From Pseudanabaena sp. PCC 6802 (GTDB lineage: Bacteria > Cyanobacteriota > Cyanobacteriia > Pseudanabaenales > Pseudanabaenaceae), in contig NZ_KB235910.1 of assembly GCF_000332175.1 (NCBI RefSeq), positions 497,278 through 561,277 of the forward strand: DNA of 64,000 nt, read 5' to 3'. The notes beneath the pieces were generated by a model. It ran no database searches. It had not been told where the DNA came from and saw nothing but the letters and a program-made list of their open reading frames with translations. Positions 2,225-57,717 of this stretch are shown piece by piece; position 1 is the first letter of the stretch, and the number at the start of each line of letters is the position of its first letter. The position numbers were made by a program, and so were the translations under genes.

Positions 2225-2623
2225 ATGGATAGATCGCAAACCTACGAAGGTGGTTGTCACTGCGGCGCAATTCGCTTTCGCGTCCGCGTCAAGAAATACG
2301 AGGCCGTTGAATGCAACTGCTCGATGTGTCAAAAGAAAGGTATTCTCCACCTCATCGTGCCACCCGAAGACTTTCAACTACTGCAAGGCAGTGAATCCCT
2401 CACCACTTACACTTTCAACACAGGCACTGCCAAGCATACTTTTTGTCGCGTTTGCGGTATTCATCCATTTTATCGACCGCGATCGCACCCCGATAGCTTT
2501 GATGTAAATGTACGTTGTTTAGATGGCGATGCTATTTCTCTGTTTCGGATCGTGCCATTTGATGGCAAAAACTGGGAACAGAACATCCACCAGTTAACCC
2601 AATCTCAAAATTCCAATTCTTGA
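2225..2623 (+). CDS. GFA family (Mss4-like) zinc protein
   Basis: The 132-residue protein matches the GFA (glutathione-dependent formaldehyde-activating-like) family. It has GGCHCGAIRF with Cys11 and Cys13, CNCSMC with Cys30, Cys32 and Cys35, and the C-terminal zinc pair CRVCG (Cys74, Cys77). Family members bind zinc in a beta-sandwich; only a few have a proven S-(hydroxymethyl)glutathione-related activity, so the substrate is open. The length is normal for the family. It converges on the Uma2 gene, and the two overlap by 19 bp at their 3' ends. Confidence 0.88.
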   Translation: MDRSQTYEGGCHCGAIRFRVRVKKYEAVECNCSMCQKKGILHLIVPPEDFQLLQGSESLTTYTFNTGTAKHTFCRVCGIHPFYRPRSHPDSFDVNVRCLDGDAISLFRIVPFDGKNWEQNIHQLTQSQNSNS

Positions 2624-3192
2624 AACAGTTGGCTTAAAGGCAAAGTAAACCCCGGTACAATTTCTTCCCCATCCAGATTATCTTCCAGCTTTAAAAGCCT
2701 TGTCGGTTTGGGACTGCGATACACCAGAGCTGATTCCTCATCAGGATTAATTACCCATGCCAAGCGCGTGCCATTCTCAAAGTATTCCACTAATTTACTA
2801 TGAATTTCTTCAAAGGTATTACTCGGCGAGATAATCTCGATCGCCAGATCGGGAGAACCTTCAAAAAAGCCTTTTGGTAATCGTTTCAACCCCTGCAAGC
2901 GTTCTTTCGAGATAAAAGAAAGATCGGGAGATCTTTTATTGCCTGCTTTCATTTTAAAGGCGGTACTGGAATCACAAGTAACACCAAGTTTGTGACTCAG
3001 AACAAAGCCTGTAAGAAAGTAGCCAAGCAATTGAGCAAGATGTCCGTGCTCCATTCCAGAGTTTGCCATTACGATTAATTCTCCATCCACAATTTCATAG
3101 CGGTTTCCGTCATCCGGCAGCGCCATAAATTCCTCATCCGTCCAGACCTTCTTTTCTACTTTTTCTTCTGTCTTATCTACTGCAACTGTCAT
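2605..3192 (-). CDS. Uma2 family (DUF820) putative endonuclease
   Basis: The 195-residue protein has the Uma2 pattern of a PD-(D/E)XK nuclease fold: GNRYEIVDGELIVM, KRSPDLSFISKERL, PDLAIEIISPSN and KLVEYFENGTRLAWVINP. These families are greatly expanded in cyanobacteria and their biological role is not established. The N-terminus starts with a charged, Lys/Glu-rich stretch. A run of A/T and other repeat DNA separates it from the ATPase gene. This is one of five Uma2 genes in the window. Confidence 0.9.
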   Translation of the reverse strand: MTVAVDKTEEKVEKKVWTDEEFMALPDDGNRYEIVDGELIVMANSGMEHGHLAQLLGYFLTGFVLSHKLGVTCDSSTAFKMKAGNKRSPDLSFISKERLQGLKRLPKGFFEGSPDLAIEIISPSNTFEEIHSKLVEYFENGTRLAWVINPDEESALVYRSPKPTRLLKLEDNLDGEEIVPGFTLPLSQLFQELEF

Positions 3193-29155: not shown

Positions 29156-30025
29156 TCAGTTTTGCAAGGCAAGGTTAAGAGAGCCATTAAGGTAAGCAGA
29201 ACGGTGTTTGAGGACTTGTGGCACATTATCACGGTTCCATTGAGCGCCAGAGATTTTGATGCGTCTAGCGATTTGCTTAACAGCAGATTCCACTGCGCCA
29301 GAACCAATAGAGCAAATCTGCTCGGTTTGGAAATACCAATAATCAGGAATACGATGGCGATGCTTGTGCAGATAAGCAATAAAATTGATGCTCTGAGGAC
29401 TAGCTAAGTGATTGAGCTCAGCAATAGCTGCAGTCACATTACCCCGCCACAAAAAAGCTTCGACCCCAGTCAAAAGTTGAGCTGTAGCCTCAATTTTATG
29501 CAGGTTTTCCACCAAATGGAACCAGTCCAAGATTTCATAGCGACTATCAGGTATAGAGATCTGGGCAATAATATTCCAAATCCCATCATGTCCATCCCCA
29601 ATACAGGTAACCATATCTGCTAAAGGCTGTCGATTTACCCAGTCTGTTAAGGCAATGTTATCTTGAAATGTGGCAAATATGGCTTGTCCATGCAAGTTCA
29701 CAGCTTTATAGTCCTTCCACTCACTTGGCTGTCCAAGTGGCGTGCGCAGTCTGATTCTGCCTCCATCGACACTTAATTCCTCGACCGACTCTTCTACCTC
29801 TAGGGGGCTAAATTCATGGCGATGCACCAGGCGCTGTTGTGTACTGCGCGATATTTGCACTCCCATCAACATGGCTAAGTCTTTGGCGGCTTGTTCGTAG
29901 GATACATTCGCACTCAAGATCAGGCTACATCTTTCCACATACGGGCTCACCTGGCTATAGGGGGCTACTTTGAGCTTCTGCGCTTGCTTTTGCGTGAGGT
30001 GGAGCTGTCCGATGCTGCTTTGCAC
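29156..30025 (-). CDS. ISKra4-like transposase, main catalytic frame (orfB), copy 2
   Basis: The 289-residue product is identical to that of copy 1 (10-879). See that entry for motifs. Its first start is a GTG inside the overlap with the upstream frame, so it is probably made by frameshift. Confidence 0.85.
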   Translation of the reverse strand: MQSSIGQLHLTQKQAQKLKVAPYSQVSPYVERCSLILSANVSYEQAAKDLAMLMGVQISRSTQQRLVHRHEFSPLEVEESVEELSVDGGRIRLRTPLGQPSEWKDYKAVNLHGQAIFATFQDNIALTDWVNRQPLADMVTCIGDGHDGIWNIIAQISIPDSRYEILDWFHLVENLHKIEATAQLLTGVEAFLWRGNVTAAIAELNHLASPQSINFIAYLHKHRHRIPDYWYFQTEQICSIGSGAVESAVKQIARRIKISGAQWNRDNVPQVLKHRSAYLNGSLNLALQN

Positions 30026-32570: not shown

Positions 32571-33299
32571 TTAGCCAGGTCGCCACGGAACGACAATATA
32601 ACCTTGCTGGCGATCGCCCAACACCAAATTCCTTTGCCTGCCCCAATACCACCAATGACTTGCTACATAAGCACAGATCAGGCTATCAAGCCGATCTTCC
32701 AATGCCTTCAGTGCCGCTCCGCTGTAGGGAATATCCAAAACAAGATCGTCGCTAATCTCTAAGGAAGGCTCTAATTTAGGTAGGGTGGAGATAATGTGTT
32801 GGTATAATCTATCCAATTCGACGCGACGTTGAGCTAATCTCCCCTTTTTATATTTGAGAATGCGTTCTAAACCAAATAGATAGATAGTAGCTGGATGTGG
32901 AAATACCTCAATCTGATATCTTCCCAAGTTTTGCGGTTCTAGATCGGGAGCGTGTTGAAATCCTTTTGTTTCCAAAGTAAGTCCAAATTCTACAGTGTTG
33001 CTTGCAAATGGTAGGCTTAAATTCGCGGGATAGCATCCCGCATGATATTTACCAAAGTGTCTGTGCGCGAGCTTATCTGGCAGTCTCATTCCCGTGCAGT
33101 TGGGAATAATTGTAGGGGCATCAACTGCAACCATTGCTGCTTCTTCTGGCTGTATCCAGCGATCGCACCAGAGCCAGATCTCGTCTATTGTTCCCAATCG
33201 TTCTAAAGACAGCAGTTTAAGCTTGCGATCGCGCCATTCCAAACAACACAAGCCACTGGGTTGCGATCGCCACCCCAAGTCGATACCAATAAACTTCAT
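32571..33299 (-). CDS. DUF429 protein, predicted RNase H-like nuclease
   Basis: The 242-residue protein matches DUF429: FIGIDLGWRSQPSGLCCLEW at the N-terminus with the first Asp, VAVDAPTIIPNCTGMRLPDK with the second, and EVFPHPATIYLFGL further on. The fold is predicted to be RNase H-like. The substrate is unknown. It is divergent from the Uma2 gene downstream, with 58 bp between. Confidence 0.88.
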   Translation of the reverse strand: MKFIGIDLGWRSQPSGLCCLEWRDRKLKLLSLERLGTIDEIWLWCDRWIQPEEAAMVAVDAPTIIPNCTGMRLPDKLAHRHFGKYHAGCYPANLSLPFASNTVEFGLTLETKGFQHAPDLEPQNLGRYQIEVFPHPATIYLFGLERILKYKKGRLAQRRVELDRLYQHIISTLPKLEPSLEISDDLVLDIPYSGAALKALEDRLDSLICAYVASHWWYWGRQRNLVLGDRQQGYIVVPWRPG

Positions 33300-33357
33300 A
33301 ACAATAGTTTATTACTTTGCTAGACTAAAATGCAGGCAATGTTTAGCGATTCAGATT

Positions 33358-33918
33358 ATGACTATTGCAACTCAACCGCTCTCGCTTGAAGAATTTCTGA
33401 AACTGCCGGAGACCAAACCAGCCAGCGAATATATCGATGGGGAGATTTACCAAAAGCCTATGCCTAAAGCCCGTCACTCTCGACTTCAAGGAAGTTTTAT
33501 TCGTACTATTAACGAGATTGCAGAAGGTATAAAAATTGCCTATGCCTTTCCAGAATTGCGCTGTACTTTTGGGGGGCGATCGCTCGTTCCTGACGTAACA
33601 GTTCTGTTGTGGGAGCGTATTGAATTTGATGACAACGGAGAGCCATTGGATGATGTGAGAGTGGCACCGGATTGGACGATTGAAATTCTCTCGCCAGAAC
33701 AAAGTCCGAATCGCGTAACTGGGAATATCCTCCACTGCATTCGACATGGTTGCCAGTTAGGTTGGCTTGTCGATCCAGGCGATCGCTCTATCCTTGCCTT
33801 TTTACCAGATCGGCAACCAGTATTGTGTGAGGGCAGCAATCTCATCCCCGTACCCAAGGCTATCCCCCTCGATCTCAGCAGCGATTTAGTTTTTAGCTGG
33901 CTGAAGATGAAAGAATAG
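33358..33918 (+). CDS. Uma2 family (DUF820) putative endonuclease
   Basis: From ATG 33358 the protein has 186 residues: SLEEFLKLPETKPASEYIDG, RCTFGGRSLVPDVTVLLWER, APDWTIEILSPEQSPNRVTG and GCQLGWLVDPGDRSILAF. The upstream in-frame ATG at 33094 would read through the DUF429 gene's opposite strand, so it is rejected. It is a close relative of the gene at 50576-51115 (both have PDWTIEILSPEQS). lipB follows 12 bp downstream. Confidence 0.9.
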   Translation: MTIATQPLSLEEFLKLPETKPASEYIDGEIYQKPMPKARHSRLQGSFIRTINEIAEGIKIAYAFPELRCTFGGRSLVPDVTVLLWERIEFDDNGEPLDDVRVAPDWTIEILSPEQSPNRVTGNILHCIRHGCQLGWLVDPGDRSILAFLPDRQPVLCEGSNLIPVPKAIPLDLSSDLVFSWLKMKE

Positions 33919-35798: not shown

Positions 35799-36416
35799 CT
35801 AAACCGCATCAGGCGGTGGCTCAAACACAATTTCTTCATAGAATTCCTCGATCGGCAAACTTAACCCAATGCTTTTTAGCTCCACGCGATCGCGTAGCAT
35901 CCCCTCTGGGGAATCGCCCGATCGATAACTCAAAATCAACCAATCCCCCGCATCATTTTTGTGATAAATATCGATCGCCATCTCATCCGAACTCACCAAC
36001 ACATAATCAATCAAATTCGGATTGCGGCGATATCTTTCAAACTTCTTGCCGCGATCGTAAGCCTCAGTGCTACTCGATAAAACCTCCACAATCAAGCAAG
36101 GATACGTGATATAGAGAGGATGCTCCCGATCGCGATCGTCACAAGTCACGCTCAAATCGGGATAAGTATAGTTGGGGGTATGGAGGATGTTAACCTTTAC
36201 ATCTGAATTAAAAACTCGACATTGACTGCCTCGCAAGTGAGATCGAATCAATAACAAAAAATTAATTGCGATCGCGCTATGATTTTGAGTCCCGCCACTC
36301 ATCGCATACACACGACCATCAATTAGCTCGTGCTTTTCTAGCTGCTGTTCTTCCCAAGCAAAATACTCTTCAGGGGTAAAGTACCGCTCCTGTTCTCTGG
36401 CTGAAATCATGACCAT
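35799..36416 (-). CDS. Uma2 family (DUF820) putative endonuclease
   Basis: The 205-residue protein has the Uma2 pattern: YFTPEEYFAWEEQQLEKHEL, IDGRVYAMSGGTQNHSAIAI, NYTYPDLSVTCDD, PCLIVEVLSSSTEAYDRGKK and RYRRNPNLIDYVLVSSD. It is full length. Role unknown; see the other Uma2 genes at 2605, 33358, 49744 and 50576. Confidence 0.92.
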   Translation of the reverse strand: MVMISAREQERYFTPEEYFAWEEQQLEKHELIDGRVYAMSGGTQNHSAIAINFLLLIRSHLRGSQCRVFNSDVKVNILHTPNYTYPDLSVTCDDRDREHPLYITYPCLIVEVLSSSTEAYDRGKKFERYRRNPNLIDYVLVSSDEMAIDIYHKNDAGDWLILSYRSGDSPEGMLRDRVELKSIGLSLPIEEFYEEIVFEPPPDAV

Positions 36417-49743: not shown

Positions 49744-50187
49744 CTATAAGAGATCGATCGCAGCTTCAAACTCCTCTAAAGCCTGTACGCTCCCTACTTG
49801 CCAAGATCTTTCTACTGCAACAGGAATAAGCTGTGTAAGGGGAATGCCCGGAAAAGTGGGGCTAGTATCGGATTGAATATATTGCCCATCTTGAAGTAGA
49901 TAGATTGCGAGCTTACCATTGCCATATATCCATACTTCCGGTACAGCGATCACCGCGTAGGTATCGATAGTCGTTTTGGAAGTGACATCGATTTCGATCG
50001 CGAGATCTGGAGGTGGATCGCCGTGTTCGAGGTGACGACGACCGATTATGCACTGATAATTGAGGATGTAGAAGCACGCATCTGGTTCTATCCCTGCCGT
50101 ACGATCGCGCTTAAAAGTAGTGGAGCCAAACGGTTCGTACTTTTTTCCTGCCTTTCTTAGCAGGAGTTTGACTAGATCTGAGACTAA

Positions 50188-50196
50188 ATCTTTTGG
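50188..50196. repeat. Target-site duplication of MITE copy 1, left
   Basis: ATCTTTTGG, repeated at 50325-50333. Confidence 0.9.
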
Positions 50197-50324
50197 CTGG
50201 TTGACTGACAAATCTCTGTAAGGGCGGGTTTAGTAAGCAATCAAACGCTTTCAATACAAAGCTTTTCGGCAAAACCCGCCCCTACGATAATCTGGGCTTT
50301 TCAGGACTTTTGTCAGTCAACGAG
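50197..50324. mobile_element. 128-bp MITE, copy 1
   Basis: The inverted ends are CTGGTTGACTGACAAA and, on the other strand, CTCGTTGACTGACAAA (15 of 16). The target duplication is ATCTTTTGG. The interior has TAAGGGCGGGTTTAG and CAAAACCCGCCCCTA, and no coding capacity. It splits a Uma2 gene. A second copy of the same length lies at 51145-51272. Confidence 0.93.
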
Positions 50325-50575: not shown

Positions 50576-51115
50576 TTATTGCGGTGCCCTGAGCAAATCA
50601 AATACTTGCTCGGCCATCAAGTCTAAAGAGATATCTGGTAGGGTAGGTAGGCGATCGCTCCCTTGACACAAGGTAACACGCAGATCGGGGAATAGCACCA
50701 TAATTACCTGCTCGGACGAATCGATTAACCATCCAAGTTGCGTTCCCTCCCGCATACATGTTTGGATTTTAGCGATTAACTTGGTTGTGCTCTGCTCTGG
50801 AGACAGGATTTCGATTGTCCAGTCGGGTGCGCCCGCGATCGCTGTATTTTCTAAAGGAATGCGATCGCGGTGAACGATCGTAATGTCAGGGACGACTGAA
50901 CTGTTGCTGAGAGTGCAGCGAAGTTCTGGAAATGCTTCATAGGGCGAATTTAGCCGATCTATCAGTGCAGTTAGGCGCTTTTGCAACATACTATGATGAA
51001 GTGTAGGCATAGTTTTTTGCTCGGCTTTTCCCTCTACAAATTCCCAGGCTGGCGATTCCTCAATCCTAGGAAGCCTCAGAAAATCTTGCAGTGTAAGTTG
51101 CTCTGTAGTAAGCAT
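50576..51115 (-). CDS. Uma2 family (DUF820) putative endonuclease
   Basis: From ATG 51115 the protein has 179 residues: LTTEQLTLQDFLRLPRIEES, RCTLSNSSVVPDITIVHRDR, APDWTIEILSPEQSTTKLIA and GTQLGWLIDSSEQVIMVLFP. An ATG at 51220 lies in the MITE and its added 35 residues are not of the family. The start and the MITE insertion leave 29 bp between them, so the promoter may have been altered. It is a close relative of 33358-33918. Confidence 0.9.
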   Translation of the reverse strand: MLTTEQLTLQDFLRLPRIEESPAWEFVEGKAEQKTMPTLHHSMLQKRLTALIDRLNSPYEAFPELRCTLSNSSVVPDITIVHRDRIPLENTAIAGAPDWTIEILSPEQSTTKLIAKIQTCMREGTQLGWLIDSSEQVIMVLFPDLRVTLCQGSDRLPTLPDISLDLMAEQVFDLLRAPQ

Positions 51116-51135
51116 AGTGTAAGGGCATAGGCAAT

Positions 51136-51144
51136 GAGGTGAAT
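51136..51144. repeat. Target-site duplication of MITE copy 2, left
   Basis: GAGGTGAAT, repeated at 51273-51281. Confidence 0.9.
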
Positions 51145-51272
51145 CTGGTTGACTGACCAATCTCTGTAAGGGCGGGTTTAGTAAGCAATCAAACGCTTTC
51201 AATACAAAGCTTTTCGGCAAAAACCGCCCCTACAATAATCTGGGCTTTTCAGGACTTTTGGCAGTCAATGAG
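51145..51272. mobile_element. 128-bp MITE, copy 2
   Basis: This copy has the ends CTGGTTGACTGACCAA and CTCATTGACTGCCAAA (other strand), and the perfect duplication GAGGTGAAT. It differs from copy 1 at a few positions, mostly in the ends. It lies between dapL and a Uma2 gene. Confidence 0.93.
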
Positions 51273-52766: not shown

Positions 52767-53930
52767 TCATGGTACTTGCCAAGCCCTAGCATGATACGTA
52801 TCGGGATCGGTATAGATATCTTGCCACATAATGCCTACATCGCCGTTGCTTTCGCGATCGTGCGAATGACCGGACTCGTGGCCTTCTCGATCTCGATGAG
52901 TATGGATATGCTCGTGGGAATGATGGGAATGCTCGCGATCGCCTTCTCGATCGTGGCTGTGTTCGTGGCTGTGTTCGTGACTGTGGTGATGAGCATGGGA
53001 ATGGGATTCCCCATGATGGTGATGGTGATGACCCGAATCGCCATGACTGGATAGTGCTGCCAGTCGGAACTTGCACATCTCGCAGTTCATCTTGACTTCG
53101 CCCTGCTGCGCTTCGATTTCGCGATCGCGCAGAATTTCAAACAAAATCGGATCTATTCCAATCTCATCTAGATTTACAATCTCTAATAAATCTGAATGGG
53201 AAATATATTCCGATCGCATCCGCTCGCTGACTGCAAAAATCTTCTTCACCAGCGCGCCAGTAAACAGGAAGTATGGCAGCACGATAATGCGTTTGGGTTG
53301 GTAGAACATGGCGCGACGGAAGCCTTCTTCTAAGCGCGGATGGGTAATGCCTATAAAACAAACTTCTACTGTCTTATAGCCACTGCCTTCCCACAGAATC
53401 CGCGCCAATTTACATACATCGCTGTTGGCATCGGGATCGCTGGAGCCGCGCCCCACAAAGAGAATTACCGTATCCTCTCGACTGATGCGATCGGGATTGC
53501 GATCGCTGCGATCGAAGGTGGCGAGGCGATCGCGCCACAACTCGACGAGTAAAGGTGTAATTCCCAGATGCCTGCCGTAGCGATATTTAATTTCGGGGTG
53601 CTGTTGGCGGATGCGATCTAACTCGTTGGTAACGTCAAATTTGCTGTGACGGGCGGCAAACAACAGTAACGGTAGTGCTGTCATTTCCGTATAACCTGCT
53701 GCCAGGCATTGCTCCACGCCCTCGGCAATGCTCGGTTCGGTTAGCTCCAGGAAACAAGGAATAACTGGGCGACTGCGATCGAAGTCTTGGTAGGCCGAGG
53801 CAAAATCTAAAAACATCTGTCTACCGTCAGCATCCCTTGTGCCATGACCGATTAGCAGTAATGGCTGCGGTTGAATGACAGGGGTGTTAATAGAATTTAG
53901 CGGTAAAGTATTGACGGAACTTTCTAACAT
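52767..53930 (-). CDS. Sirohydrochlorin chelatase, CbiX-type, His-rich
   Basis: The 387-residue protein has two CbiX-like domains: [20 protein letters not shown] with the N-terminal catalytic His, and [20 protein letters not shown], with [15 protein letters not shown] later. The C-terminus is strongly His-rich (about 307-365), which would bind Co2+ or Ni2+. CbiX inserts cobalt into sirohydrochlorin for B12, and a cobalamin riboswitch lies just upstream, so cobalt is more likely than iron. ATG 53930 is chosen because AAGGAG lies 11 nt before it; an ATG at 53981 falls in the riboswitch region. Confidence 0.9.
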
Positions 53931-53940
53931 AAACTCAAAA

Positions 53941-53965
53941 CTCCTTTCTCGTGCAACGCGAGAAA
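53941..53965 (-). promoter_or_regulatory. Hairpin overlapping the CbiX ribosome site
   Basis: TTTCTCG and CGAGAAA (53945-53951 and 53959-53965) pair around a 7-nt loop, and the stem overlaps the first bases of AAGGAG. It could be the expression platform that hides the ribosome site when cobalamin binds. This is inferred from position. Confidence 0.55.
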
Positions 53966-53971
53966 TAGAGC

Positions 53972-54085
53972 GATCCAACAAGATCCTGCGAGCATTCCGA
54001 CTATTACGGCTGCGGCACAGTGTTGGGGTTGCACCAAACTTTCCCCACAGGCTTGCAAATCACAGTGTGCTTATTGAGCATACAC
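53972..54085 (-). promoter_or_regulatory. Cobalamin (B12) riboswitch upstream of CbiX
   Basis: Reading on the minus strand: GCCTGTGGGGAAAGTTTGGT, then GCAACCCCAACACTGTGCCG, then CAGCCGTAATAGTCGGAATG. These fit the cobalamin aptamer: the GGTGCAA piece, the CACTG-GC-GC-AGC-GTAA B12 box and the AGTCGGAATGC piece. It ends shortly before the ATG of the CbiX gene. Confidence 0.9.
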
Positions 54086-54122: not shown

Positions 54123-56489
54123 TCATGCCAAGAAACGACTATCGACAGCTTGGTTAGAAGCCAGCAGGTGGTCGATCGCCTCACTTGGCAGTGGCTTGCT
54201 AAAATAATAGCCTTGACCGCGATCGCAGTTTAATTCCCGCAGGATGGCTAATTGATTGGCAGTTTCAATTCCCTCAGCTGTAATGCCCAGATTTAGGGCT
54301 TTAGCAAAAGCAATAATGGCATGAACGATGGCGGTGTCTTCGGGATTACTACCAAGTCCGTTTACAAAACCGCGATCGATCTTGAGGGTGTCTACGGGAA
54401 ATTGCTTTAAGTAATTTAAGGCAGAAAAACCAGTACCAAAATCATCAATGGCCAATTGCACTCCCAGGTCGTTTAGTTTGCGGAGTAAGTCAAGATTGGC
54501 ATCTGTATTTCTCAGGATCGCGCTTTCTGTGATTTCCAACTTCAAACTACCTGGCTCCAAATTCTGCTCTTGCAGGATCGCAGCAATTTTATCTTCTAAT
54601 TGAGATTGCTGAAACTGTTTGGCTGAGAGATTCACGCCTACAACTAGAGGTGGGTCGCTGGGATATTGCAAATGCCAAACTCGCAACTGTTTGCAGGCTT
54701 GCTCTAAGATCCACTGTCCCAATGGCATAATTAGTCCCGTTTCCTCTGCCAAAGGGATAAAATCTAGAGGTGGCACTAAGCCGCGTAGCGGATGCTGCCA
54801 GCGCACCAGTGCTTCTACCTCAACAATCTTGCCAGTATCTAAATGTATTACTGGCTGGTAGTAAACCCTAAATTCCTGGCGTTCGAGCGCTCGACGCAGA
54901 TCGGCTTCCAAGAGCAACTGCTGTCGTGCCTGGGATGCCATATTGAGATTGAAGACCTGATGGGTAGCTTTACCATTTTTCTTGGCTGCATACATTGCCG
55001 CATCGGCATCGCGGAGAAAGTCATCTGGACGACTGCGATCGCCCGTACTGATGGCTATGCCAATACTAGCCGAAATAAATATTTCATGGTCTTCTAAACT
55101 GAAAGGTAACTCCAGTTGTTTCGCAATCCTCCGGGCAACTGAGGTGGCATCCTCCATATCCTGGATGTTCTCAAGCAAAATCGTGAATTCATCACCTCCC
55201 AACCGTGCCAAGGTGTCCTCATCTCGCAAGCAGCTATCTAAGCGTTCGCTCACTAGCACGAGCAGGCGATCGCCTGCTTTATGGCCGAAACTATCGTTGA
55301 TTAGTTTAAATCCATCCAGATCTAGAAATAGCACGGCGATCGTATTCGGACTGCGCTGAGCGCGTACTAATGCCCGACGCAAGCGATCCTCAAACAAAGG
55401 GCGATTGGGTAGGTTGGTGAGAGGATCGTGAAATGCTTGATACGTAAGCTTGGAAATCTGCACTTGCAACTGCTTTGCTAGATAGTTAATCGCTTTTCCC
55501 AGTTCCTGCAGTTCTTGAATATTGCTAGATGGTACCAGTCTGTTGTAGTTGCCGTGAATGATGTCCTGAGTAGTATCAACCATTGATTCTAGCGGCTGGG
55601 CAATGTCGCGAGCCAGCAGCAACTCAACCAGTAAAAGTACCATTAATAATCCCATCAATCCAAGTAGCTCGAGCGTTTTGCGCTGGTTGGCCGCCGAGAC
55701 TAAATCTTGGGTAGAAATTAAAGCTAGCAGCAACCCACCATTATCTAGTTCTTGAGCAACAGCGTGGAAGTTATATTTAGATAAAATTTTATTAATGTCT
55801 TCTAGCTGGTTCAGAGTAAATTTGGACTGTTTTAGCAAGTTCATCACCTCTGGCTGAACAGAGGTAATATTGGCTAAACTGCCATCCTGAAATAATGCTA
55901 AATCGACAGGATCTTTCCCCTTATAAGATTCGAGGTCTTCGCCGTTTAATAGAGAGCCAATTATAACTACACCCGCGATCCCGTGCACTCCTTTGACTGG
56001 GGCTGAGGCAACTACTGCCAGTCCTTCCTTGCTGACAAAAGTACTGATTTTCGTTAGACCTGTTAAAGAATCATCAATTAAAGACGAAGGACTATTGTTG
56101 CCGCTATTGCTCAGGAGTAATAAATTACGCTGTTGGTCATCATATACTTTGACAAAGTCTATGCCTAGCTTAATTTTTAAGGGTAATAGAAGTTGAGTTA
56201 GTTGCCTCGTGTCTTTGTTTTCGATCGAGGTAGCAAGGTTGGGTTCTTCTGCTAGTAGCTCTACAAATAGTGCTTTAGCTTTCTTGCGATCTTGCAGGCG
56301 CTGCAATATGCCCTGCAGTACGAGCGAGCCTTTTTGTTCGGTCAGGAGTTTTATTTGCCAGTGAGTAGCAATGTCTTCGACCAGGCTGATGCCAACCGAG
56401 CCTGCTGCTACCAATACAATCACAGGCGCAAGCAACCTCGCGCGCAGCCGCCTAGGGCGTAGCTTTGCTATTAACGCCTGCATATCCAT
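54123..56489 (-). CDS. Bifunctional GGDEF-EAL protein with extracellular sensor
   Basis: The 788-residue protein has a first membrane segment (about 20-42), a periplasmic sensing region like a Cache/CHASE domain (about 45-265), a second membrane segment (about 272-294), HAMP-like sequence, a GGDEF domain with LGGDEFTIL (near 431) and an EAL domain with EVEALVRW (near 558), later DDFGTGFSALNYLKQFPVDT. Both active sites look intact, so it could make and break c-di-GMP. It overlaps the PstS-like gene by 38 bp, which suggests coupled translation. Confidence 0.92.
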   Translation of the reverse strand: MDMQALIAKLRPRRLRARLLAPVIVLVAAGSVGISLVEDIATHWQIKLLTEQKGSLVLQGILQRLQDRKKAKALFVELLAEEPNLATSIENKDTRQLTQLLLPLKIKLGIDFVKVYDDQQRNLLLLSNSGNNSPSSLIDDSLTGLTKISTFVSKEGLAVVASAPVKGVHGIAGVVIIGSLLNGEDLESYKGKDPVDLALFQDGSLANITSVQPEVMNLLKQSKFTLNQLEDINKILSKYNFHAVAQELDNGGLLLALISTQDLVSAANQRKTLELLGLMGLLMVLLLVELLLARDIAQPLESMVDTTQDIIHGNYNRLVPSSNIQELQELGKAINYLAKQLQVQISKLTYQAFHDPLTNLPNRPLFEDRLRRALVRAQRSPNTIAVLFLDLDGFKLINDSFGHKAGDRLLVLVSERLDSCLRDEDTLARLGGDEFTILLENIQDMEDATSVARRIAKQLELPFSLEDHEIFISASIGIAISTGDRSRPDDFLRDADAAMYAAKKNGKATHQVFNLNMASQARQQLLLEADLRRALERQEFRVYYQPVIHLDTGKIVEVEALVRWQHPLRGLVPPLDFIPLAEETGLIMPLGQWILEQACKQLRVWHLQYPSDPPLVVGVNLSAKQFQQSQLEDKIAAILQEQNLEPGSLKLEITESAILRNTDANLDLLRKLNDLGVQLAIDDFGTGFSALNYLKQFPVDTLKIDRGFVNGLGSNPEDTAIVHAIIAFAKALNLGITAEGIETANQLAILRELNCDRGQGYYFSKPLPSEAIDHLLASNQAVDSRFLA

Positions 56490-57342
56490 ATTTCTCTACG
56501 ATTTGTCTTCCTTCGGGACCGACAGCGAAATTAACAAAGCTTTGCAACTCTGGGGCTGGATTGCGTCGATGAACTAGTCCCAAGGTTAGATACCACGGGT
56601 ACTTACCCCCAGCTACCGTATCGACGCTGGGTAACGTGCCATCTAGACTGAGAACCTCGACATGCTGCGGATCCAGGATTTGCATTAACCCTAAGGAAGA
56701 ATACCCAAAAGCATAGGGGGTACTGTCGAGGGACTCCACCATATCCTTAGCTTTAGATAGAACAATGGTTTGTACCTGCACTGGACGGTTTTGCATAAAT
56801 GGTAAAAGCCCTAATTTTCGTGCTGATTCGCCTGGGTCTCGATCCAGGACGATAATCGGGGCATTCTGACCGCCCAACTGCTGCCAGTTTGTCAACTTAC
56901 CTGCATAAATATCCTGAATTTGGGTTGTGGAAAAATTTTTGGTTGGTACTGGTTTGTGCGCGACAAATGCGATCGCATCGCGAGCAAAGGGCTGGTAGAC
57001 GATCGCTTCTTTGGACTCAGCTTTAGATAGCGGTCGATTGACAACTGCTAGATCCAGCTTTTCTTGAATCACCCCTTTAATGGCACCACCTGAGTTAGTC
57101 CCTGACTCAAACTGGAGTTGAGAATTGGGGTGTTTCTGGGTATAGACTTCGGCTAATTTCTTTACTATTGGTATAGCCGTACCCGAACCCGATACTCGAA
57201 ATACGGTTATTTGTGAAGTTTTCGAGGGAGAATCAAATAATTGTTGGGATGTTTGCAAGCTTGGACTGGGCGTACAACTAACCAAACCCCACGTTAGAAA
57301 TACTGCAAATATTGAAAGAGGTTTCAGCGATCGCGATTTCAT
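56452..57342 (-). CDS. PstS-like phosphate/ion-binding lipoprotein
   Basis: The 296-residue protein has a lipoprotein signal (about 1-23, WGLVSCTPSP with the lipobox Cys23) and the PstS/PBP_like_2 fold: VSGSGTAIPIVKKLAEVYTQ, FESGTNSGGAIKGVIQEKLD, IYAGKLTNWQQLGGQNAPII and DRDPGESAR. The ligand may be phosphate or another anion. It is directly coupled to the GGDEF-EAL gene and has no ABC permease beside it, so it more likely serves as a sensor than as a transporter. Confidence 0.85.
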   Translation of the reverse strand: MKSRSLKPLSIFAVFLTWGLVSCTPSPSLQTSQQLFDSPSKTSQITVFRVSGSGTAIPIVKKLAEVYTQKHPNSQLQFESGTNSGGAIKGVIQEKLDLAVVNRPLSKAESKEAIVYQPFARDAIAFVAHKPVPTKNFSTTQIQDIYAGKLTNWQQLGGQNAPIIVLDRDPGESARKLGLLPFMQNRPVQVQTIVLSKAKDMVESLDSTPYAFGYSSLGLMQILDPQHVEVLSLDGTLPSVDTVAGGKYPWYLTLGLVHRRNPAPELQSFVNFAVGPEGRQIVEKYGYAGVNSKATP

Positions 57343-57717
57343 TAGTAAATGTTGGCAAGTTGAATACAGCAGTAATCATTTATAGCTATAGCCAACAGGC
57401 TGAGGACGGGGTGCAGGGATTTCACCCCTGCGTGAGGGCGCAGCCCCCACACCCCCCTGTCCTAACAGATCTAGATCTGTCTATGGCTATAAGACGCTTA
57501 ACGTGAGGTCTGGCGAACTGACGTAAGCTCGGGGTTCGTTTAGTAACGACACGCCCAGAAACGGGGTGTTTTTCCCGATTCCTAATTAAGATTACCCAGA
57601 AGTTACCGTTTGTTTAACCGCCAGTTGCCTCCCTATCCCTTCCCAAATAAGAAATCGCCCTAGCAAACCCAGAATGCGGTCGGCAGGGCAATTCGGAGAG
57701 ATCGGATCTATCTGAAT
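57343..57717. other. Intergenic region with a palindromic repeat
   Basis: The repeat at 57381-57491 takes up the left part. The rest (57492-57717) shows no gene; it may hold the promoter of the PstS-like gene at the left and the end of the AAA gene at the right. Confidence 0.4.
57381..57491. repeat. TATAGCTATAGCC-type palindromic repeat
   Basis: The ends TATAGCTATAGCCAACAGGC and (other strand) TATAGCCATAGACAGATCTA enclose GCAGGGATTTCACCCCTGC and GTGAGGGCGCAGCCCCCAC. It is an inverted match to 52577-52680. Confidence 0.85.

Follow-up and report, generated by a model that had tools for sequence, protein, structure and literature searches.

In Pseudanabaena sp. PCC 6802, the lipoprotein P0001 and the membrane protein P0002 probably form a two-part receptor, in which P0001 binds a ligand, docks on its partner's dCache domain and sets GGDEF against EAL activity; we put the probability of this reading at roughly 0.7. 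P0001 would be tethered in the periplasm and hold a small ligand in its cleft. Its docking on the dCache domain would alter the HAMP segment and shift the balance between synthesis of c-di-GMP by GGDEF and breakdown by EAL, as in the NspS-MbaA system. P0001 appears to have descended from a transporter-type PstS and to lack the standard phosphate site, and the module is kin to a lipoprotein/sensor-kinase pair that is widespread in cyanobacteria. The gene pair, its domains, the conserved pairing, the kinship of both partners, the difference in output and the loss of the Ser-Gly-Thr loop can be read from the sequences; docking, gating by a ligand and the direction of the change in c-di-GMP are what we infer.

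The gene pair and its surroundings

The pair lies in a 64,000-nucleotide stretch of contig NZ_KB235910.1 (hereafter the window), and all coordinates below refer to this stretch unless a locus is named.

56452..57342, minus strand: P0001, lipoprotein of 296 aa with a PstS fold (PBP_like_2), the putative input partner in the periplasm (ORF list, domain search, model)
57274..57285, minus strand: lipobox LVSC (LVS-C), P0001 residues 20-23 (motif; present in 110 of 121 family entries)
56818..56841, minus strand: RDPGESAR, P0001 residues 168-175, aligned with the phosphate loop of PstS (4gd5 and 4q8r: R-E-D-G-S-G-T-R) (alignment)
56452..56489, minus strand: overlap of the P0001 and P0002 genes, 38 bp (ORF coordinates)
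54123..56489, minus strand: P0002, dCache-HAMP-GGDEF-EAL membrane protein, 788 aa (ORF list, domain search)
56364..56447, minus strand: first membrane helix, P0002 residues about 15-42 (hydropathy)
55683..56363, minus strand: periplasmic dCache sensor, P0002 residues about 43-269 (domain search, profile, model)
55590..55682, minus strand: second membrane helix, P0002 residues about 270-300 (hydropathy)
55464..55619, minus strand: HAMP, P0002 residues 291-342 (domain search)
54969..55436, minus strand: GGDEF domain, P0002 residues 352-507, with RxxD (422) and GGDEF (431) (domain search, motif)
54192..54905, minus strand: EAL domain, P0002 residues 529-766, with the EAL motif at 559 (domain search, motif)

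The overlap shrinks to 32 bp when the second ATG of P0002 is taken as its start, and any later start would truncate the first membrane helix. The genes adjoining the pair encode a CbiX-type chelatase, an aminotransferase and an AAA+ ATPase, and a domain search of the neighboring window ORFs found no ABC transporter or pstC, pstA or pstB gene beside it. The first-pass annotation had described overlapping genes, a binding protein without an adjacent ABC transporter, and a partner with a periplasmic sensor region and both c-di-GMP active sites; the shared positions, the adjoining genes, and the predicted dCache domain together with the RxxD, GGDEF and EAL motifs bear out these three statements. 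A promoter and terminator scan returned fewer sites than were found in shuffled sequences and carries no weight.

Several other features of the region were recorded. The chelatase (52767-53981) ends in a long His-rich tail, and two identical, transposase-like ORFs of 289 aa occupy 10-879 and 29156-30025. Five window ORFs (2605-3192, 33094-33918, 35799-36416, 49744-50211 and 50576-51220) resemble Uma2-type proteins, which have a nuclease fold. Elsewhere in this genome (L042:4950-7432), the gene of an Sll0540-like binding protein overlaps by 4 bp that of a second binding protein from another family, Peripla_BP_6, and no transporter genes were seen in that stretch.

A conserved lipoprotein/sensor module in cyanobacteria

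Relatives of P0001 are found next to relatives of the P0002 sensor in many cyanobacterial genomes, and searches with either partner lead independently to the same loci. A search of 38 genomes from the order showed that the closest P0001 relatives outside the window (G007, locus L036; G018, locus L037) each have a dCache-HAMP kinase directly downstream. The G018 kinase is of the hybrid type, has dCache_3 and lies 9 bp from the lipoprotein gene; the G007 kinase matches dCache_1 weakly and is separated from it by 212 bp. When 388 genomes of the class were searched with the sensor alone, a lipoprotein relative stood directly upstream in 16 of the 20 neighborhoods around matches covering most of the sensor and was absent in four (L102, L103, L106 and L108); a kinase was the output wherever it could be read. 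A profile of 19 lipoproteins identified 31 places in the 388 genomes at 302 bits or more, followed by a gap down to 167 bits, and 12 further neighborhoods were read after this search. Further, mutually overlapping searches gave matches in 62 of 217 genomes for family f32, 5 of 36 for f24, 3 of 42 for f16, 11 of 63 for f13 and 35 of 243 for the order of G338. A phylum-wide search gave matches in 14 of 386 genomes, with all places in genomes already listed.

The combined tally, which leaves out the phylum search and the search of the G220 order (63 genomes, the same list as an earlier search), comprises 121 lipoprotein entries. A sensor is linked to 108 of them: 101 with a kinase output, six with the output unseen and one, the window, with GGDEF-EAL. 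Among the six, a kinase ORF lies beside the sensor ORF in L149 and L140/L153, a kinase start is visible in L207, and three are at or near a contig end. The 13 entries without a sensor beside them are 11 orphan-looking copies and two broken genes. A gene interrupted by transposase ORFs (L258) was counted twice, once as kinase-linked and once as lacking a sensor, while a stop-broken lipoprotein with a downstream kinase (L151, G254) fell below the 190-bit cut and was dropped. The median gap in the 101 kinase cases is 12 bp, with overlap in 13, and the partners include several kinase types, hybrid kinases among them. Most of the neighborhoods examined hold no transporter genes around the pair. With 108 of 121 entries sensor-linked and the lipoprotein upstream in 16 of 20 sensor neighborhoods, lipoprotein and periplasmic sensor thus constitute a conserved module. 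Chance adjacency of P0001 and P0002 was also considered and is rejected on the same two counts.

The orphan-looking lipoproteins (L247, L249-L256, L259 and L213) belong mostly to family f32, and no lipobox was found in two of them (L252 and L254); these copies may be decaying or may act on a distant receptor. Upstream of the G018 pair lies a lone permease gene (BPD_transp_1; L037:6977-7930). Upstream of the G007 pair are another kinase gene and a 378-aa ORF (L036:1037-3359), the latter of which we take to be a FIST-type sensor protein.

The lipoprotein and its replaced loop

P0001 contains a PBP_like_2 domain (E 2e-33), and its predicted model (pLDDT 86.9) has the PstS fold, with solved PstS-type proteins as its structural matches. 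Its best solved relatives carry phosphate-binding protein titles, and one of them, 4gd5, holds bound phosphate. Several of the 11 family entries without a lipobox begin at an internal codon. Against a family profile from which its own row had been removed, P0001 scored 207 bits, compared with at most 162 bits for transporter-type PstS proteins, and the highest-scoring outsiders to the profile sit in pst operons. It lacks the family residue in 17 of the 44 lipoprotein columns that are otherwise near-invariant. P0001 shares fold and family with the PstS of pstSCAB transporters but differs in its lack of transporter genes, in its loop and in its score, which lies below the PstS cut-off.

The Ser-Gly-Thr residues of the PstS loop hold the phosphate. 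Where phosphate-bound 4gd5 and the related 4q8r read R-E-D-G-S-G-T-R, P0001 reads R-D-P-G-E-S-A-R, retaining one loop Arg and an N-R-P-L segment. Not one of the 120 family rows that could be read has Ser-Gly-Thr, and all of them carry letters similar to the Glu-Ser-Ala of P0001; Glu-Ser-Ala itself takes this place in 85 of 121 rows. P0001 has probably lost the usual phosphate-binding mode.

Loss of the pocket loop throughout the family, together with the absence of transporter genes from most neighborhoods, is what would be seen if the lipoprotein were a ligand-free adaptor, its vestigial cleft merely a relic, that reports envelope state or holds the receptor in one state. The replaced loop is nevertheless strongly conserved (Asp167 in 118, Arg168 in 102 and Glu172 in 113 of 120 rows) and resembles a working site, and we regard such an adaptor as unlikely. 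The conserved acidic loop suggests another ligand, or else a structural function.

The proposed receptor: sensor and output

The dCache_3 match in P0002 has an E value of 1e-5 and lies exactly at Pfam's cut-off (25.7 bits), and the predicted sensor model (pLDDT 81.7) has a dCache fold. LuxQ, a receptor for a binding protein, gave a Z score of 12.8 (3c38; 194 residues aligned, rmsd 4.3), but the full-domain matches are tied, with KinD at 12.7 and DctB at 12.6, so that the fold alone does not decide for a binding-protein receptor. The CitA sensor reached Z 14.3 as a single-domain match over about half of the sensor length. When PDB sequences were searched with a profile, only LuxQ (3c30) matched over most of the sensor, and weakly (E 0.017). 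The parallel to LuxP-LuxQ and other receptors driven by binding proteins is a dCache receptor with a proposed partner of that kind. The sensor model matches LuxQ, but it matches KinD and DctB equally well, and LuxP belongs to a binding-protein family other than that of P0001.

The P0002 sensor is genuinely related to the sensors linked to lipoproteins. When the sensor profile was built without the P0002 row and applied to the periplasmic part alone, P0002 scored 54 bits (E 7e-16) and the best outsider 7 bits. P0002 departs at 11 of 25 near-invariant sensor columns. On these leave-one-out scores, P0001 and the P0002 sensor are both relatives of the lipoprotein/dCache-kinase pair family, though distant ones.

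Small ligands are commonly bound directly by dCache domains, and many of the fold matches of the sensor are ligand-bound receptors. P0002 might accordingly sense a ligand in its own dCache pocket, in which case P0001 would be either a transport protein without its transporter or a scavenger expressed along with the sensor, and the 11 orphan-looking family lipoproteins would fit such a division. Against this, the pairing is kept in 108 of 121 entries and no transporter adjoins the window pair, which makes self-sensing less likely still than the adaptor role.

Every motif looked for in the output half is present: RDED for RxxD (422), GGDEF (431), EAL (559) and the remaining catalytic EAL motifs. 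Both c-di-GMP active sites look intact. The output half scored best against phosphodiesterase families, DibA first, with none above cut-off. At least nine other GGDEF-EAL tandems in the genome share 42-49% identity with this half and are a possible source of it.

Phosphate as an unlikely signal

Phosphate is unlikely to be the ligand because Ser-Gly-Thr has been lost, the PstS score falls below cut-off and no Pho box lies upstream. Of the NCBI curated PstS models, TIGR02136 gave P0001 126.5 bits (cut-off 206.6) and TIGR00975 gave 32.6 bits (cut-off 205). With a cyanobacterial Pho box consensus and up to three mismatches, no match occurred in 57343-57717 upstream of the pair, and the window as a whole held 66 matches against 53 expected by chance. 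The genome has two pst operons, each with its own PstS, and these two transporter-linked proteins keep Ser-Gly-Thr.

A phosphate-loaded PstS docking on the sensor as a phosphate-responsive c-di-GMP switch, which the PstS fold and PBP_like_2 family, the phosphate-binding titles of the nearest solved relatives (with phosphate in 4gd5) and the retained Arg and N-R-P-L segment would favor, is distinctly improbable in view of the replaced loop across all readable rows, the intact loops of the two transporter-linked PstS proteins, the deficit of 126.5 against 206.6 bits and the missing Pho box. It was rejected as the main reading on the lost loop, the sub-cut-off score and the absence of a Pho box. 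Since P0001 appears to derive from a transporter-type PstS and to have lost the standard phosphate site, the signal is probably not phosphate. The first-pass annotation had proposed that a ligand-loaded lipoprotein changes c-di-GMP through the sensor, with phosphate or another anion as the ligand. Its first part is retained, in that conserved pairing, sensor homology and the dCache fold suggest a dedicated input partner; phosphate as its ligand is not supported, given the family-wide loss of the loop, the PstS score, the Pho box result and the pst operons that own their PstS, and an anion as ligand is not confirmed.

Co-divergence and the rarity of the c-di-GMP form

Lipoprotein and sensor distances correlated across 62 pairs with r 0.83, compared with 0.36 for lipoprotein and kinase. 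The first mirror tree gave a lipoprotein-sensor partial r of 0.80, which rested partly on mixed kinase types. Within one kinase type (53 pairs), the three pairwise correlations were alike (0.84, 0.85 and 0.88), and the partial r was 0.36 for lipoprotein and sensor versus 0.43 for lipoprotein and kinase; the value of 0.36 was reached by 0 of 2000 permutations. As the partial r falls to 0.36 with one kinase type, the mirror tree is evidence only for the pair traveling together. Fairly read, the comparisons indicate that lipoprotein and sensor remain partners and that their output may vary.

The window shares with the cyanobacterial kinase pairs a homologous lipoprotein, a homologous periplasmic sensor and the gene order, but its output differs: 101 entries have a kinase, whereas P0002 lacks a histidine kinase output and carries GGDEF-EAL instead, the only such case among the 121 lipoprotein entries. 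In the same order, no GGDEF-EAL gene was found within about 1.5 kb of a lipoprotein in L001-L035 except in L004 and L006, which are the window's own place. A scan of genome contigs with P0001 yielded 14 loci with distant binding proteins and no pair of the window type. The plasmid search gave its best match in Nostoc edaphicum, in a region that also has pstA and a gene for an ATP-binding protein, and viral contigs held two weak relatives. A search for the pair in other genomes, as the first-pass annotation had suggested, has two outcomes: lipoprotein and sensor are widely conserved, whereas lipoprotein and GGDEF-EAL occur together in no other genome searched.

The window pair is also the most divergent. 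P0001 and P0002 rank as such among 96 pairs, with mean identities of 0.29 and 0.20, and their tree branches measure 2.23 and 3.7 changes per column, with unsure placement. Owing to these long, unplaced branches, fast evolution and an ancient separate lineage are indistinguishable, and the pair may either have exchanged its output recently or belong to a side lineage of long standing. Divergence at near-invariant columns could reflect relaxed constraint.

Relation to known systems and significance

Binding proteins acting on cyclases and phosphodiesterases have been described as a general mode in the available text of PMC9602780. In Vibrio cholerae, the membrane GGDEF-EAL protein MbaA can both make and break down c-di-GMP, and which activity prevails depends on whether NspS, a separate periplasmic protein that binds polyamines, is occupied (PMC8967002, in the portion available); the available part of PMC9993111 reports the system in Sinorhizobium meliloti as well. 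As far as these excerpts describe it, the likeness to the window lies in gene arrangement and domains: a binding-protein gene adjoins a gene for a membrane GGDEF-EAL protein with a periplasmic domain and both catalytic motifs. The difference is that NspS binds polyamines, whereas P0001 is a PBP_like_2/PstS-fold lipoprotein. In the Pho-RapA-LapD pathway of Pseudomonas fluorescens, low phosphate leads to expression of the phosphodiesterase RapA (PMC3032545, in part). This pathway likewise links a nutrient to c-di-GMP but, on the same partial text, acts through RapA expression rather than through a binding protein on a receptor. According to the accessible text of PMC8846402, a review of c-di-GMP sensing, SBP_bac_3 was the sole member of the binding-protein clan to have been investigated as a domain of proteins in c-di-GMP networks.

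The first-pass annotation had called the arrangement undescribed. Within the portions of these sources available, this is too strong for the principle, given NspS-MbaA and RapA; we found no description of such a pair in cyanobacteria in the open-access literature, and within the searches named here, the cyanobacterial lipoprotein/dCache family with its lost phosphate loop and its c-di-GMP form appear to be new. We consider it about as likely as not that a transporter-type PstS was recruited as a dedicated sensor subunit, its site rebuilt for another ligand (the conserved Asp-Arg...Glu-Ser-Ala loop), and that the resulting module was combined with various outputs, kinases of differing architecture as well as the c-di-GMP turnover of the window, which would constitute an undescribed class of lipoprotein-gated receptors.

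The PstS-type domains of family members make it likely that annotation will class them as phosphate-uptake proteins. Should the two-part receptor be real, a good part of the cyanobacterial members would instead be sensor subunits, with about 100 candidate pairs. The window would hold one of the few separate, rather than fused, binding proteins that control c-di-GMP, and would represent a natural exchange of output, in which one input module feeds two messages and can be compared with its kinase form. It would also provide a route by which an extracellular signal is fed into c-di-GMP in a photosynthetic bacterium.
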